The notes below the pieces were generated by a model that saw only the letters and a program-made list of their open reading frames with translations, did not search any database and was not told where the DNA came from. From Apiotrichum sp. Y4204 (taxonomy: Eukaryota > Basidiomycota > Tremellomycetes > Trichosporonales > Trichosporonaceae), in assembly GCA_025531455.1 (NCBI GenBank), contig JAMYHL010000071.1:149535-213534 (forward strand): 64,000 nucleotides of DNA, in the 5' to 3' direction. Of the stretch, positions 55,181 to 63,925 are shown one piece after another. A program made the position numbers and the translations under genes. Position 1 is the stretch's first letter. Each line of letters starts with the position of its first letter.

Positions 55181-55188
55181 TATATTAA
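55181..55188 (+). promoter_or_regulatory. TATA box of the repeat-peptide precursor gene
   Basis: TATATTAA lies 101 nt upstream of the ATG at 55289. It is followed by a pyrimidine-rich leader with CATCA-type transcription-start context and CACC directly before the ATG, as in strongly expressed fungal genes. Confidence 0.5.
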
Positions 55189-55288
55189 GGTCGGCCAGTC
55201 GCGTTCTTTCGTTCCAGCATCCCAAGTAATCCCCGCTGAAAACTCCTCTCCCCCTCTCATCCAGTCATACCAACATCATTCGATCACC

Positions 55289-55932
55289 ATGAAGGTCGCC
55301 GCTCTCCTCGTTGCCCTCGTTGCCGGCGCTAACGCCGTCCTCGCCGCGCCCGCCGGTAAGTTCGAAACTGCCCGCGTTCTACACCAGTATCGGTGTTTCA
55401 CTAGTGTGTGATCGCTGACTCTGCAGTTGAAAAGAGGGACGCCGCTCCCGAGCCCCAGTGGGGCGCCGGAACCTGCTCTGGAAAGGCCTGCTGGAAGCGT
55501 GAGCCAGAGGCAGCTCCCGAGGCCGCCCCCGAGCCCCAGTGGGGTGCCGGAACCTGCAGCGGAAAGGCTTGCTGGAAGCGTGAGCCAGAGGCAGCTCCCG
55601 AGGCCGCCCCCGAGCCCCAGTGGGGTGCCGGAACCTGCAGTGGAAAGGCCTGCTGGAAGCGTGAGCCCGAGGCAGCTCCCGAGGCCGCCCCCGAGCCCCA
55701 GTGGGGTGCCGGAACCTGCAGCGGAAAGGCTTGCTGGAAGCGTGAGCCCGAGGCTGCTCCCGAGGCCGCTCCCGAGCCCCAGTGGGGTGCCGGAACCTGC
55801 AGCGGAAAGGCCTGCTGGAAGCGCGACGAGTGGTACGTGTTTTGTAGTGAATGCCAGACGAGACGACTGCTGATGACCAGAGCGACGATCACCCTTCTGC
55901 TTGTCGGCGCCGACCGGCGGCTGATGCGCTGA
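55289..55932 (+). CDS. alpha-factor-like secreted peptide precursor with five Kex2-flanked repeats
   Basis: Secretory precursor. Exon 1 (55289-55355) encodes the signal peptide MKVAALLVALVAGANAVLA. A 71-nt intron (55356-55426) precedes the repeat exon. After APAVEKR come five copies of the 13-mer QWGAGTCSGKACW, each followed by KR. The spacers are DAAPEP before copy 1 and EPEAAPEAAPEP before copies 2-5. They consist only of X-Ala and X-Pro dipeptides, the substrate pattern of Ste13-type dipeptidyl aminopeptidase after Kex2/Kex1 processing. The mature peptide would carry two Cys (one disulfide), an N-terminal Gln able to become pyroglutamate, and a C-terminal Trp. This recalls W-C-x-n-C-W ascomycete alpha-pheromones and the Trp-ending Cryptococcus Qsp1. 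The reading frame runs to 55932 (190 residues). An optional intron at 55833-55880 would instead create a stop after KRDE (157 residues). Confidence 0.88.
55438..55824 (+). repeat. five in-frame repeats encoding QWGAGTCSGKACW
   Basis: One 63-bp unit (55438-55500) and four 81-bp units (55501-55581, 55582-55662, 55663-55743 and 55744-55824). The 13-mer segments begin at 55456, 55537, 55618, 55699 and 55780. The encoded 13-mer is identical in all five, while synonymous positions differ (Gly GGC/GGT, Ser TCT/AGC/AGT, Ala GCC/GCT). This indicates selection on the peptide, not merely recent duplication. Confidence 0.95.
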
Positions 55933-57972
55933 GCGCTCTCCGCATTCTGGCGCCCCCGAGATCGGCCGATCTATCCCCAAAGCATCTACGCGCTCGTCTT
56001 TCTGCTGTGCTTGCGTTGTCTTCCACCTATCTTTTTTCTCTCCTTGCAGTTACTCTTTTCATGTCATGTGTGTTTTTGTCAAACAAACGACTGCTTTTCC
56101 TGTCCTTGCCCAGGTGCGGCCAGGCGGTTCCTGTGCGTTTTTGCCCACGACCTGCGCTAGTGCGACGCTATCGCGCTATCCAGCGACAAGACATAATATC
56201 AGGGTCAGGACTGTGGGACAGGCGTCAGCACAGACGATCTGTTGAATGAGCGTACAAGAAGCCAAGGCTCTATTCCCCAACTCTAAAGCGCCAACAAATG
56301 TCAGTTGAAAGTTTAAATCTTACACTAGCACGTACTTGGCAAAAGGGACCGATTGCAGTGGAAATGCACTAAGGCGAAGGACTCCGCCCGTATCACCCAC
56401 CATGCCGCACCATGTAGGATGCAAGTTACCCAGGTACCCATCTAGGCTGCGCACCCACGCATGCCAACCGGAAGCTCGGGGAATCAGGAATCTGGATAGA
56501 GGAAGCCGGGGGCCGCAGCCTCAACGCCACTACACTGAAAGGTCATGGCCTCGGGTTGGGTGGGATATCGCAGATGTGCAGGGGCAAGGCTGATGCAACT
56601 AGCCGGTATTGCATGCGGATGCCACGCCGCCGACGTATGTGGCTTCACAACGCCTCTGTCAGAGAGGACCCGCGATGTGATGAGCCCACTCAAACTCGGT
56701 GTACTATTCCCAGGCCCACGGAGATGAGCTTTGTCTCTTGTGACATTTCAGACAGGGTGCCGGCCGCGCCGTTGTACTCGGCCCGAGAAGCCCGACCGAC
56801 AAACGTAGCGTCCCTCCGCGCTCGGCATCGCAAGGCACCCACGGGGCTTGGGGCTTCGGCGCTGCAAGGCACGAAGACAGGCACGATTCATCCCAGCACA
56901 GGCGAGGTCATCCCGCCTCATGTCTCGGTCTCCTGGGCGGAGCATTAGCGCAAAACTTCTTGCCTGCGACGAACATTGTGGTGCACGCATATCGCATGGA
57001 ACGGCCGAACGGGTTAACGGGGCACGATGGGGGCCTTGATGCTGCAGCTGCCATCGCCCCATACAACGGAACTGGTTTTTCAGAGGAGACACAGTGTGTC
57101 CATCCGCCGTATTCCGCGCTCATCACGCTTCCATTGCTTTATATCCCACCTCCCGCCTGCACCAGTGCCTGTTGCATGTGGCGCCGCGGTCCGCAAATCT
57201 ACACTTTTGAACCCTCCACGGAGGTTCACTGCCGACCACATTAACGAAGATACTTACGAGGCTGAAGACTCCTGAAACCGCTGTGAAGGCGGGAGTGCTT
57301 GTTGATTGTGATTGCAGTGCGCAGTGCTGGCGCTGTGATTCCCACCAAGGCGTTCTATGTCAACACATGCGGGGCTACACGGGGTAGCCCGAAGCCCCAG
57401 CTGTCTTCCGGGCATCCGCGCATCATCCCCTTCCGCCATCACGAAGCTTCCAACGTGCACAGTGGACGGCACCGAGTACAACGCGCAGGGCACAGCGGAG
57501 AGAGCAACACATGCGCACAGATCAGACAGGTACAGAGATCCCACAGATTGGAGATCGGGGAAACAGTCGACATGTTACATGTCGCAAGTCCACATGAGTG
57601 GACGGCGCCCCACCAGCGTCGCGGGCCCAACGGCCAAGGCCCCGCTGGAATGGGCTTGATCACGTCCTGCCCCAGTGCGCCATTGCGGTGTACCTTAATC
57701 AGCCTCCTAAAATCCTTGCGAAGGGGGCCGGCGAGACAGGAGTCAGTTGTTGGCGGGCGTCATTGTCAGAAAGTCAGGGTCAGCGGCCCGCGCGGCCTGG
57801 TTTGCTAGCATGGTCAAGGCTGCTGACTGAGATCGCGCGAGACAGCCTCAATACGCTTTCTTTAGGAGGAAAACCATTGTTCCAACAATCGTCCGACGCT
57901 ACAACGGCGGCATCACCGGCCCCATGCTCGCTTCTAAGACGCGCCCAGTTTTCCAACCGAAGTAACCAGCAA
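55933..57972. other. convergent intergenic, no gene seen
   Basis: 2 kb between the peptide precursor and the DJ-1-like gene, which converge. Open frames on both strands are short, Arg/Pro-rich and without motifs. The 55940-56110 part is T-rich and fits the 3' UTR of the peptide gene. Confidence 0.35.
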
Positions 57973-58713
57973 CTACCAGCCCACATCCTTCGCGATTTCA
58001 AGGCCTTGCACAATCGCTTCGCGGCGCATCGCCACGTTTGCCTCCGTCCGCGCGATCACGCTACCGACTACCGCTTGCGGCGCGGTTGTCGGGTCGCCGG
58101 ACGCGAACGGCGGAGCAGGCGCGTACTCGAGGTAAAGCTGTGCGGCCTCGGCGCGCTCGCGGCCCCCCAACTCGGCGGCTAGCGTGAGGGCAAAGTCGAT
58201 ACCAGCGGTCACGCCTCCGCCGGTCATAAGGGTAAAGCGACCGTGCTTGGACTCGGCCTTGGATCCTGTGTCCGACTCGGGGTCGTCGCGCACGACGCGC
58301 TCGCGTACAGGCACGGCGCCAAAGAGGTGCAGCAAGTCGTGGAAGCGCCAGTGTGTGGTCGCGCGGCGGCCTGTGAGGAGCCCTGCCACGCCGAGAAGCA
58401 GCGCGCCGGTGCACACTGAGGTAACATAGGTTGCCGACTTGGCCTGTCGGCGCACCCACCCGATGACTTCCGGATCCGTGAGCGTGTCATTAATACCGGC
58501 ACCGCCGGGCACTACGAGGATGTCGAGCGGCGGGCAAACGTCCAGGGTCGTGTCCGCGGAGAGCTGCGCGCCTGAGCTACTGCGCATGGGCTCCAAGTGT
58601 TTCCACACCAGATGTGCTTCGACATCCGGAAGGCCGGCGAGCACGTCGTGCGGGCCGAGGATGTCCAGTTGCTGCACGTTGGGAAAGAGGAGGAACCCGA
58701 TGTGCTTGGTCAT
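57973..58713 (-). CDS. DJ-1/PfpI superfamily protein (isonitrile hydratase-like)
   Basis: Single-exon, 246-residue cytosolic protein of the class I glutamine amidotransferase-like DJ-1/PfpI superfamily. The N terminus MTKHIGFLLFPNVQQLDILGP and the central LDILVVPGGAGI are characteristic. The nucleophile elbow is VTSVCTGALLLGVAGLLTGR with Cys101, followed by ATTHW as in isonitrile hydratase-type members. FTLMTGGGVTAGIDFALTLA then matches the late conserved strand and helix. Activity could be isonitrile hydratase, glyoxalase-like or chaperone; the ATTHW and SVCTGA context favours the first group, but only weakly. The C terminus (IVQGLEIAKDVGW) extends slightly beyond the core fold. Confidence 0.93.
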   Translation of the reverse strand: MTKHIGFLLFPNVQQLDILGPHDVLAGLPDVEAHLVWKHLEPMRSSSGAQLSADTTLDVCPPLDILVVPGGAGINDTLTDPEVIGWVRRQAKSATYVTSVCTGALLLGVAGLLTGRRATTHWRFHDLLHLFGAVPVRERVVRDDPESDTGSKAESKHGRFTLMTGGGVTAGIDFALTLAAELGGRERAEAAQLYLEYAPAPPFASGDPTTAPQAVVGSVIARTEANVAMRREAIVQGLEIAKDVGW

Positions 58714-59427: not shown

Positions 59428-62149
59428 TCACGTTAACGTGCTCGATGTCCGAGCTAGGGACCGCCGCTGTTCCTGGCGATCGAGGGCGCGACTGAGGCGA
59501 TCGGAGAGCACGATGCGCTCGCGCTCCCGGGGGGCAAGGCGGCATCGCTTGTTGTGACTTATCCACTTGCCACAGTACTCGCAAAACACACGACCACGGG
59601 CACGGACGCTTCGTACCCTGCCACGGCCGTGGTCGTTTTCATTGGGCGACGACAGCCGGGCCCTACTTGTTGAGGCGGGATCCCATGAGGAAGCGGTTGC
59701 TGGGGCGGGCCCTTGACCAGCTGTGGTAGGTACGGCACCTGTTGGAGCTGGGGTGGTCATCGTTGGCAGGTCTGGCGCTGTCATCAGTGTTGAGGGCACT
59801 CGGCGTGCTCCTCTGGTGACGTGTGTGGTGAGTGGTGTAGATGTCGCCGAACTAGGTGGAGTTGATAGAAAAACTCCAACAGTTCGGTTGCCCCCTCTTA
59901 CTGGGCTTTGGCTTGGCTTTGCAGCGGGTGGGCGCTGGTACTCGTGGCCCGCGAGTTGTGTGACGGATGACGCCGGAACCGTGCCTTGCACCGATGCCGA
60001 GGACATTGAGGAGCGTCCGGTAGCGGCAGTTGAGGTAACGGAGCCGTTTTCTATTCTTGTAGCCCTGGCAGAAATCGGAGTGAGGACATTGTACGTTTAG
60101 GCCGGGGCCCTTGCCAATATTTGGCTGGATACCGCATGGGCGGGCGTGCGGGTAGAAACAGTGGCACTACTGAGAGTGCTGCTGGGGGCTATCGGTGCAG
60201 GGGTGGTCTCCACCGCCTCGTTCTTCCCAAAGTCAACGTCCCCGAACAACAAGATGTCCTCCTCGGTGTCAAGGAACCAGTGGAGATCAATGGCAGACAA
60301 CGGAAGAAAGGGGACGGTGCGACCTATCGGTGCATTGCGCGCTCTGCGTAGCTCCTCCGCGATCGTATGTTTGCATGGGAGTCCATATGTTGCCGTGAAG
60401 CTGCGCGTGCAGGGGACAAGCGGATCGGTGCTGTCCAAAGAATCGTGAGCGAGATTGTGCTGCGCTTCCAGAAGAGCCCAAGCGGGGCGGGAGACGAGGC
60501 CGAAGAGCTGTGAGTGTGAGGGACGTTTTTACCGAATGAGCTGTGGGGCCATAACTTACCTCCTTGAAGATAATTGGGCGACCCACGCCTGAGTCGGCCA
60601 TGTGGCCCGCCATGGACGCCACACAGTCAGTCCAGGACTCCACGATGAGGTCGCGGATCGGGCCCACAAGCGTCGCAATATCCCCAGTGGCTGCGCGGAG
60701 CTCGGTTTTGGCTCGCCGTTCAATGTCGGTGCGGACACGGAGAACATCTCGAACGTCCATCGTTCGCCACTGCTTCGTCACAGCATGAATGAAGCAACGT
60801 CCACTTTGGGTGATCAAGGCGCTCGCGTGCGGATACAGCCCCACAAAGCCGTCCATCTGCCGGAAGTGCGCCAGGCGCTGCACAGCGGCGGTGTACTGCA
60901 TTCCGTTGTACGCATCAGCCACAGCGTCCCAGGCGGCAAGGAACTCTTTAAACGTGTCCTGCGCCAACTGGCCACGCTTTGTACGCAGCGAGTGCTTGAG
61001 ATCTCGAATGCATAGCAAGATGCCGACGTGCTGCTGATTGAAAATTTGTCGCAGAGCGGTTCGCAGCTTCTGGTGCACTGGGGTTACAACTGCGCCGACA
61101 CCAGGTACAAACCCCTCGCCCATGGCCTCGGTCCATGCTGCGATCGCTCGCTGGTGCCAATCTGGTGTCTCCGTCGTGGCAAGGATCATGGCCGACAGGT
61201 ACACCTTGTTCGTCGGCGTGGTGCCCGTGATGGCGAGCATGGGCTGGCCGTATGCAGTACTGGTAGTAAATTCAGGATCCATCCCGAAGACGGTGGGATA
61301 TCGACGGGTGAGCGCTCTGGTCTTCTTGGTCGTGTACAGGACGGCAATGGGCGTCTGGTCTCCATCGAGCACGAGCTTGAACACGTCTCCCGGCCTAGTG
61401 ACGGTCTCCAGGAGGCGGTTTAGCTTGTCAGCTGCACGTGTTGCCTCTCGCTTGCGCCAATGGCGAATGACGTTTGAAACAATGTAGAAAGAGCATTTCT
61501 TGCCGTCTTTATCGCGCCTCGCCGCCGCGAGAATATCGCTCTGCAAAGTGCCCTCCGCAGCCATACCCTCAATGAGACCGACCAGCGAGCGCGAAGGCAT
61601 GCGGTGCTCCGGAAACGTCCCGTACGGAAGCGCGCGGTGGTTGTGCTGTGCCACGACGACATAGTACCACCACTCACGTTTCTCGCGCACCGCCTTGATG
61701 TGGAACTGGCAACCGGCCGACGACTTCTTGCAGCCCACTTCGAGGTACGCGGGCCCATCCGTGTACACGTTTCTAGACGTTCTGATCACGATGCCGAGTC
61801 CATTGTCGCCCGCCCACTCCTGCAGAAAGCAGAGCAGCTCCTGGTGGTCAGTCAACCCGGTGGGCGGCACGAAACGGGTGACGAGGTTCGGTGGAACGTA
61901 AACGCGGCGTTGCGCAAGATGATCTGGAACTGGGCGAGCAGGGGCAGCAGTAGTGAGTACGATTGCACGGGCAGGCCGTTGAGGTGCAGACGTTCCCGTC
62001 GGAGCAATAGGTCGCGGTGGCACGGCAGGCGCGGGACTCGAGGATGATCCAGCAGGAGCTTGTTGGGCAGACAATGCAGCGCGACTCGCCGTGACACTTA
62101 GGGGGTTACAAGGGGGTGCCCATCTGGGGGTTTTTTGATCTAGAGTGTG
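59428..62149 (-). pseudogene. decayed Mutator-like (MULE/FAR1-type) transposase
   Basis: Minus-strand remnant in three parts. Part A (60560 to about 62149) has a FAR1-like zinc region (LEVGCKKSSAGCQFHIK, then AQHNHRALP) and a MULE core: VFGMDPEFTTSTAYGQPMLA with the first Asp, TTETPDWHQRAI with Glu, VVTPVHQKLRTALRQIF and LLCIRDLKHSLR. A 52-nt intron (60508-60559) leads to a SWIM-like finger (CTRSFTATYGLPCKHTIAEE). The same frame then meets TAA at 60097-60099, yet stays open beyond it to 59428 and ends with a zinc-knuckle-like CEYCGKWISHNKRC. The usual second catalytic Asp (TD) is TP and the C-x2-H motif is CIRD. No ATG exists at the 5' end of the open frame. Hence a non-autonomous relic, or less likely a domesticated gene with unresolved splicing. 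No terminal inverted repeats were found. Confidence 0.75.
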
Positions 62150-62379
62150 CAACGAAACTCTTAAACATGTCCCAGATAGGCCTGAGTGTGTAGATTATGG
62201 ATCTAAGCGTGGATTTCCGGTGGCTGGTCTAGTTCACGAGCTACAGCCATTTGAAAAGTGGGGTCGGGCAGCTAAAATATGTAGGATTTACGCTCCCCTG
62301 GAGATGCGAGAGTAAATATGAGACTGTGTAAGGCCTTTTAAAAGCCATATAGATACCATACTAGTGTGCTGTCATCCTT

Positions 62380-62828
62380 TTTAGCGATTTTGTTCACCAT
62401 CACTACTGGCAGACACTCCTGCCAGTGAACTCAGCACAGGGGTATATAGTGCTTTGCTGATCTTACACAAGACAAAAGCTGGTTCTACTTACATAATGCA
62501 GTCACAACTTACCTAATGCAATCTCAATGGATTGAGCTAGTGCTGGTGCGGTGCATTACATAATGTGCTTCACATAGGTACCTTGCCAATCCCACATGGG
62601 ACCTTTGCTGGTGGCAGCACAGACTCTGGATTACATAATGTGCTCCACATGTTACCTAATGCTTTCACAATGGATTGAGCCAATGCCATTGCAATGCATT
62701 ATATAATGTGGTTGACATAGATGCTTACTAATGTTACATAAGACCAATGCTTGTGGCTACAGAGCCTCTGCATTACATAATGTGCTCTACATCTTACCTA
62801 ATGATCTCACAATGCATTGCACTAAATT
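62380..62828. repeat. tandem array, period about 142-143 bp
   Basis: The word TTACCTAATG recurs at 62509, 62652 and 62794 with similar sequence between, including CAATGGATTGAGC and paired TTACATAATG words. A partial unit precedes the first. About three diverged copies. The sequence is AT-richer than its surroundings and abuts the 161-bp array. Confidence 0.8.
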
Positions 62829-63925
62829 CTGTGGCTCCAGGAGTTTTCCCAAACTCGGCTCCCATCCAGCTGTGCTGTGTGGGGGTCTCTAAGCGCACTG
62901 CACCAGTATGGGGATGATCAAAACAGATGGGAACTGAGATTTACACCATCGACTTTGGTTGCCCCACGCGCCATACAAAGTCTTGCCATCCTGTGGCTCC
63001 AAGGGTTTTGCCAACCTCGGCTCCCATCCAGCTGTGCTGTGTTCCTCATGCCAGATGTGCTGCAGAAGACTGAGCTGCATCGAACAGATGGGGGCTGACA
63101 TCTACACCATCGAGTTTCTTCGCCCCACGTGCCATACAAAGTCTTGCCATCCTGTGGCTCCAAGAGCTTTGCCAACCTCGGCTCCCATCTAGGTGTGCAG
63201 TGTTCCTCATGCGAGACTTCTTGCAGAAGACTGAGCTGGATCAGCCTGACGAGGACCGAGATTTATGCCATCGAGTTTCCTCGCCCCACGTGCCATACGA
63301 AGTCTGGCCATCCTGTGGCTCCAAGAGTTTAGGCAAATTTGGCTCCCATCCAGCTGCGCTGTGTGGGCCCCCATGAGTGTACTGCACTGGTATCAGGACG
63401 ATCAAACAGATGGGGTCTGACATTTACGCCATCGAGTTTCTTCGCCCAACGTGGCATACAAAGTCTGGCCATCCTGTGGCTCTAAAAGTTTTGGCAAACT
63501 CGGCTCCCATCTAGGTGTGCTGTGCTCCTCATGCGAGACTTCTTGCAGAAGACTGAGCTGGATCAGCCTGACGAGGACCGAGATTTATGCCATGGAGTTT
63601 CTTCGCCCCACGTGCCATACAAAGTCTTGCCATCCTGTGGCTCCAAGAGTTTTGCCAACCTCGGCTCCCATCCAGCGGTGCTGTGCTCCTCATGCCAGAT
63701 GTGCTGCAGAAGACTGAGCTGCATCGAACACATGGGGGCTGACATCTACACCATCGAGTTTCTTCGCCCCACGTGCCATACAAAGTCTTGCCATCCTGTG
63801 GCTCTAAGAGTTTTGTCAAACTCGGCTCCCATCCACCTGTGCTGTGATCCTCATGCCAGATGTGCTGCAGAAGACTGAGCTGGATGGAACAGATGGTGAC
63901 TGACATTTACGCCATCGAGTTTCTT
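62829..63925. repeat. tandem array of a 161-bp satellite, about 6.8 copies
   Basis: The landmark CCATACAAAGTCTTGCCATC, with minor variants, occurs at 62971, 63132, 63293, 63454, 63615 and 63776, a period of exactly 161 bp. The first unit has one extra base. Units fall into subtypes by their middle part. One type has CATGCCAGATGTGCTGCAGA (units 2, 6 and 7), another CATGCGAGACTTCTTGCAGA (units 3 and 5), and a third has an unrelated GTACTGCA/GATCAAA-type middle (units 1 and 4). 161 is not a multiple of three, so the open frames through it are accidental. The array stops within a few bases of 63925. Confidence 0.93.

Follow-up and report, generated by a model that had tools for sequence, protein, structure and literature searches.

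A six-locus family of alpha-factor-style repeat precursors, with a putative non-mating peptide signal, in the doubled genome of a basidiomycete yeast

Introduction

CCG-4-type alpha-pheromones have a role in the mating of ascomycetes, with a STE2-type receptor, and Qsp1 of Cryptococcus is a single short peptide and not a repeat precursor. As a secreted short peptide signal of a tremellomycete, active in vegetative cells as well as in mating, Qsp1 is comparable to the putative signal described here, but it is imported through Opt1 (PMC7537855).

The nearest published kin are Kex2-processed repeat proteins (KEPs). Le Marquer et al. (2019, PMC6339444) report from Trichosporon oleaginosus a KEP with QSWGGCGGRGTPCW and a STE13 signature, liken its peptide to Sordariomycete alpha-pheromones, and record STE13-type KEPs from other basidiomycetes too. 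As in the gene described here, this is a STE13-signature KEP of a basidiomycete yeast, with a short core, a Trp near the N terminus, two Cys and a C-terminal CW; the core sequence is a different one, and its cysteines are spaced C-x6-C as opposed to C-x4-C. One peptide is reported from T. oleaginosus, whereas the Apiotrichum genome has six loci in two homeologous sets. Umemura (2020, PMC7329392), with the protein of Le Marquer et al. as a query, describes a KEP type common to Yarrowia and Cutaneotrichosporon, five members of which are annotated as fungal pheromones. Processing of basidiomycete KEPs with the STE13 motif has been demonstrated in agaricomycetes, with peptides that start with Gln or pyro-Gln and end with Trp upon expression in P. 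pastoris, and Trp-ended KEP peptides are also reported in Pleurotus (PMC9769878). Those precursors resemble what we predict for ours, with peptides that begin with Gln or pyro-Gln and have Trp at the C terminus, but their cores (e.g., QYKAPSW) have no cysteine pair and they belong to another class of fungi.

The kind of peptide reported here is thus already in print, and the gene that we describe is a further member of it; the original prediction of an undescribed kind of peptide is not supported in view of the T. oleaginosus report. A search of full-text literature did not find the exact peptide, and it did find that of T. oleaginosus. What is new is a six-locus family in a doubled genome, tests of selection and of the dipeptide register, and a profile match to CCG-4.

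Results

The window is the whole stretch of 64,000 nucleotides that was analysed, positions 149535-213534 of contig C152 in an assembly of 48.9 Mb and 182 contigs. Its peptide-precursor gene lies on the + strand at 55289-55881 and begins with exon 1 (55289-55355), which encodes MKVAALLVALVAGANAVLAAPA-, a hydrophobic N terminus that looks signal-like by eye. After intron 1 (55356-55426; GTAAGT...CTGCAG, with identical splice signals in the homeolog on C20), exon 2 (55427-55832) encodes a VEKR leader site, the Kex2-type KR of which is at 55432-55437, and five units, each made of an X-Ala/X-Pro spacer, the 13-mer core QWGAGTCSGKACW and KR. The order is VEKR-DAAPEP-QWGAGTCSGKACW-KR and then four times EPEAAPEAAPEP-QWGAGTCSGKACW-KR, with the cores at 55456-55494, 55537-55575, 55618-55656, 55699-55737 and 55780-55818. 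TRF independently found the same 81-base array (55441-55823, 4.7 copies, 95% matches). Every element named in the original prediction is present in the sequence: the start, the leading EKR, the 13-mer in five identical copies with KR after each, and spacers consisting of X-A/X-P pairs only. The alpha-factor processing grammar that it had proposed is supported as well.

The 3' end depends on a predicted second intron at 55833-55880 (GT..AG), proposed from its splice signals and from the ends of two paralogous loci (C and E, below). Its removal would join TG at 55831-55832 to the A at 55881, the last base of a TGA stop; 55857 is an alternative acceptor, and with either one the protein would end in CWKRDE-stop. 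Unspliced, the frame reaches 55932 and ends in LMR-stop, so that the gene has no CaaX end in either form. We prefer the spliced form because loci C and E finish with KRDE-stop without an intron there; contig C20 stops before the position of intron 2. Of the span 55289-55932 first given for the gene, the start therefore stands, whereas the interior needs the intron at 55356-55426, and 55932 as the end probably results from reading through the second intron.

Upstream, a TATA-like box, which is a consensus match only, lies at 55181-55186 (+), 108 bases before the ATG and at an equal distance in the homeolog, and 8 of the 12 family copies have such a match no more than 200 bases from the ATG. In a search of the upstream regions for a pheromone-response or other common motif, no 8-mer occurred at as many as four of the six loci and two 7-mers did (shuffle mean 0.4, shuffle maximum four loci); four known motif strings were not common to the loci either. 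No Rfam family matched the window at gathering thresholds. Pfam gave just a PARP match far below cut-off for the window gene and for homeolog B', and cannot decide on the precursor, since P0003, a CCG-4-type precursor, matches no Pfam family either. On the opposite strand a frame at 55276-56049 (-) stays open through the entire repeat, for 257 codons; we set aside such long antisense ORFs as probably a mechanical consequence of the repeat being open.

Elsewhere in the window, a DJ-1/PfpI family gene lies at 57973-58713 (-), about 2 kb downstream of the peptide gene. Two tandem arrays with units of 142 and 161 bases (62489-63925), possibly subtelomeric or satellite, occur near the right end of C152, which is also the window end, and beside them is a 635-residue ORF (60287-62194, -) with a MULE transposase match below the Pfam cut-off.

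The repeat bears signs of selection. Across the five cores with their KR and the four full spacers, there are nine variable nucleotide positions in seven codons, all of them silent, including a Ser encoded by TCT in unit 1 and by AGC or AGT in the remaining units; seven single changes placed at random were all silent in 4 of 300,000 trials. Differences that are silent only could also stem from gene conversion among the units. The homeolog A' on C20 is 94% identical to the window DNA over 478 bases and has G in 4/4 units where the window gene has S in 5/5, a unit-wide difference that is what concerted evolution gives. Between the two, pS is 0.198 and pN 0.021 in the repeat part (103 codons), compared with 0.074 and 0.029 in the first 32 codons. 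Between homeologs, the cores of loci A, B and D seem to be under constraint on these counts, with pN of 0 at both B (pS 0.214) and D (pS 0.077), over two unit pairs each, whereas at locus F 4/13 residues of the core differ (pN 0.142, pS 0.341, 13 codons). Together, the silent-only differences among units and the low pN/pS between most copies argue that the gene is real.

The window gene (locus A) belongs to a family of six loci in homeologous pairs, 12 copies altogether, of which two are decayed (C' and E') and one is cut by a contig end. These counts are lower bounds from two protein queries, two DNA queries (loci E and F) and the window DNA. The first protein query reached 10 of the 12 copies, to which the DNA queries added the partners of E and F, and the second reached 12/12, all its 18 rows at E up to 10 falling on them; five of the 26 rows of the first (E up to 10) were off-family, on C1 (at 1598466), C98, C117, C13 and C125, all at E of at least 0.167. 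A degenerate DNA pattern had 39 matches, 19 on five family copies and 20 elsewhere, its reversed control having 16. DNA identity within the pairs is 79-98% in the segments that align. For A', the 3' half was not found: C20 ends inside the array, and the 3' flank from the window matched itself only.

The cores are related but differ from locus to locus. Locus A, on C152 and C20, has QWGAGTC(S/G)GKACW. Locus B has SWGRGPCSGEACW on C94, with P for G in one unit of four, and on C139 two copies of SWGRGPCSGEACW with three of NSGWGQGGCGGHACW. Locus C has three copies of QWGGFGGGQRDPQW, without Cys, on C102 and, on C1, a decayed copy with one unit; locus D has QHGFGGGGCGGGHNPVCW twice on C106 and the same core without QH on C6; locus E has RWGGGCGGQPCW once on C102 and a decayed copy on C10; and locus F has QWGTGDCSRNACW on C57 and QWGSGGCGGNACW on C153, both stopping directly after the Trp. 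Cores are 12-18 residues long across the family. In undamaged copies Trp is their last residue at 6/6 loci, with KR or a stop next to it; at locus F, where the core ends W-stop with no KR, the same mature end would thus be reached without Kex2. Two Cys are present at five of the six loci (locus C has none), and W-G stands near the core start at five, with F-G at D. A single Arg (ER or SR), not KR, precedes the core or spacer in B, E and the first unit of D. Identical repeats are absent from E and F, so that strictly the other four loci count as KEPs; the published mean for Tremellomycetes is 1.00 KEP per strain (Umemura, PMC7329392). Beyond the stop codon of locus D on C106 (about bases 1780-1830 of L020) lies a degenerate extra repeat unit. 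Both copies of locus F (L024 on C57, L052 on C153) have one clear core ending at the stop and, upstream, a CRGTQCW-KR half-unit.

Spacers in the window gene consist of X-Ala/X-Pro pairs only, 3/3 in the first and 6/6 in the inner ones. Taking one representative spacer from each of the six loci, Ala or Pro occupies the second place in 39/43 dipeptides, with 0 of 100,000 shuffles as good, a test that is partly circular because the core starts were placed by hand. Without locus B the count is 36/37, again with no shuffle of 100,000 as good. Locus by locus, the shuffle p values show that D (0/20,000) and F (0.001) give most of the weight; locus A has single-spacer values of 0.03 (inner) and 0.20 (first), and C and E have 0.07 and 0.21. 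Locus B does not fit (3/6, p 0.50); five of the six loci carry the STE13 signature.

Genes of the Kex2 and Ste13 types are present. A Kex2-type P domain was found on C114 and C149, in two pieces each, and a DPPIV_N gene (Ste13-type peptidase) on C57 and C153, no other place in the genome matching; its ORF contains GWSYGG, which we take to be the serine-hydrolase motif. STE3 is on C13 and C51, one in each subgenome, and about 5.6 kb from it in both copies is an identical 29-residue ORF ending in CTIA. CaaX-like ORFs number four in 29.8 kb of C13 (102000-131800) and two in 19.8 kb of C51 (20500-40300), and those present on both are the 29-residue ORF and one other. We chose the former as the CaaX pheromone candidate because its start appears to resemble that of Cryptococcus MF-alpha; a full-text literature search with that start found no fungal paper. 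With the same 29 residues beside STE3 in each, both subgenomes seem to carry the same pheromone type, and this candidate agrees with the CaaX setting of basidiomycete mating from which the original prediction had set the peptide apart. None of the 12 family copies is on C13 or C51. Neither STE2 (PF02116, E up to 1) nor UstYa (DUF3328, PF11807) had a match in the genome, two negatives that are weak because the control genomes gave no match either. In Trichosporonales, according to Sun et al. (2019, PMC6730849), every MAT allele contains just one gene for a pheromone precursor, close to STE3, and hybrid species carry two subgenomes; two such hybrids are described in PMC6642101. The doubled genome, the STE3/CaaX arrangement and the published T. 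oleaginosus peptide together suggest that the fungus studied here is a Trichosporonales hybrid as well.

A profile of six family sequences was compared with 5.8 billion proteins, and four of the 7,995 candidates scored reached E up to 1. The top three come from Pseudoneurospora, Neurospora and Copromyces, and all have repeated QWC...CW cores, with E-values of 1.3e-6, 2.4e-6 and 3.3e-5 that are inflated by the repeated units; the third is named clock-controlled pheromone CCG-4 and the first two bear the incomplete name 'Clock-control'. In a local control with 100 shuffles each, their scores of 42-46 bits fell to means of 2.3-4.6 (maximum 18.1) when each core was shuffled internally and to 0.3-2.8 (maximum 16.4) when the shuffling was applied to all the sequence around the cores. 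Core and surroundings both matter to the match, since either shuffle abolishes the score. The likeness to ascomycete pheromones of the W-C...C-W type, first noted from size and cysteine pattern, is supported by this profile match. Like the window gene, these Neurospora-type precursors (P0002-P0004) have repeated QW...G-x-x-CW cores, KR sites and, in spacers such as DAAPEAAPEANP, the dipeptide register of the family. They differ in having long non-repeat stretches and in their core (QWCRIHGQSCW), which has Cys at position 3 and C-x6-C, whereas the core of the window gene has C-x4-C, its first Trp not being followed by Cys. Searches with single sequences gave no clear relative: at E up to 1, one returned P0001 (E 0.63) and the other P0005 and P0006 (E 0.057 and 0.16). 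P0005 is a repeat precursor with HFARRPGQGGK-type cores and X-A/X-P spacers, and scores 27 bits against the family profile. Each of the three protein searches scored 7,990-7,995 candidates, and low-complexity words from the spacers may keep relatives out of this set; the absence of named Trichosporonales matches therefore says little.

Discussion

We interpret the window gene as a KEP processed in the manner of alpha-factor, the peptide of which is most likely an extracellular, non-mating, self-made signal, a reading to which we assign a probability of about 0.6. The predicted alpha-factor-style processing is well supported by the architecture of the precursor; the signalling role is one that we infer from this architecture and from the published argument that STE13-signature KEPs are good hormone candidates, which allows for an effector role as well (Le Marquer et al., PMC6339444). 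A signal peptide would bring the precursor into the secretory pathway, where Kex2 would cleave after KR, Kex1 would take off KR to leave a C-terminal Trp, and a Ste13-type dipeptidyl aminopeptidase would remove X-Ala/X-Pro pairs until it meets Gln. Five copies of QWGAGTCSGKACW would be released in this way, probably with a disulfide and an N-terminal pyroglutamate, and the 13-mer would leave the cell as a signal, from one of six loci with related but different peptides. The question of homologous repeat genes in sister species, raised in the original prediction, is answered in part: the genome itself has paralogs and homeologs of the gene, and another species contributes one published peptide.

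The main rival, which we regard as unlikely, is that these are secreted peptides of defence or antagonism, or peptides acting on another organism, with the diverged cores at six loci as the trace of an arms race. Short peptides containing Cys and Trp would in general suit such a role, the cores do differ among the six loci, that of locus F changes fast (pN 0.142 over 13 codons) and two homeologs have decayed, but the apparent constraint on the A, B and D cores between homeologs and the hormone argument of Le Marquer et al. (PMC6339444), effectors being allowed, point the other way. That the 13-mer is a true mating pheromone, beside or instead of a CaaX pheromone, is improbable because the CaaX candidate adjoins STE3, on contigs without family loci. 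Linkage of the two in both subgenomes is what has been published for Trichosporonales (PMC6730849), 0/12 family copies share those contigs, and STE2 had no match in the genome or in the control; the profile similarity to CCG-4-type precursors speaks for such a role nonetheless.

We give still less weight to a surface or structural repeat peptide, for which Rep1 of Ustilago, a basidiomycete KEP with peptides that affect the hyphal wall, is the model; its peptides have 37 residues and no STE13 signature, whereas those described here have 12-18 and the signature is found at 5/6 loci (PMC6339444). Least probable of all, in our estimate, is a cyclised RiPP of the dikaritin or ustiloxin type made from the cores, as the dipeptide register indicates trimming by exopeptidases and UstYa had no match in the genome, the controls being equally without one. 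Dikaritins moreover use Tyr, which is missing from the core. Shared KEP architecture with ustiloxin-type precursors (PMC7329392) is the evidence on its side.

An extracellular signal outside mating thus remains the reading that we prefer, and the profile match raises the question of its ancestry. On sequence grounds, the similarity to CCG-4 is compatible both with common descent and with convergence on the same processing grammar, and does not separate them. We consider it doubtful that the family truly goes back, whether through descent or through horizontal transfer, to the alpha-pheromone gene known from ascomycetes, and that a basidiomycete lineage which uses CaaX pheromones for mating has retained it and expanded it into at least six non-mating signals acting via receptors other than STE2.

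The broader question is what function alpha-factor-type precursors have in basidiomycetes, where lipopeptides serve mating. Six loci in one genome, together with genes for the processing enzymes and a separate canonical receptor and pheromone candidate, make this question testable. They also offer a concrete case in which to ask whether alpha-pheromones predate the ascomycetes or had more than one origin.
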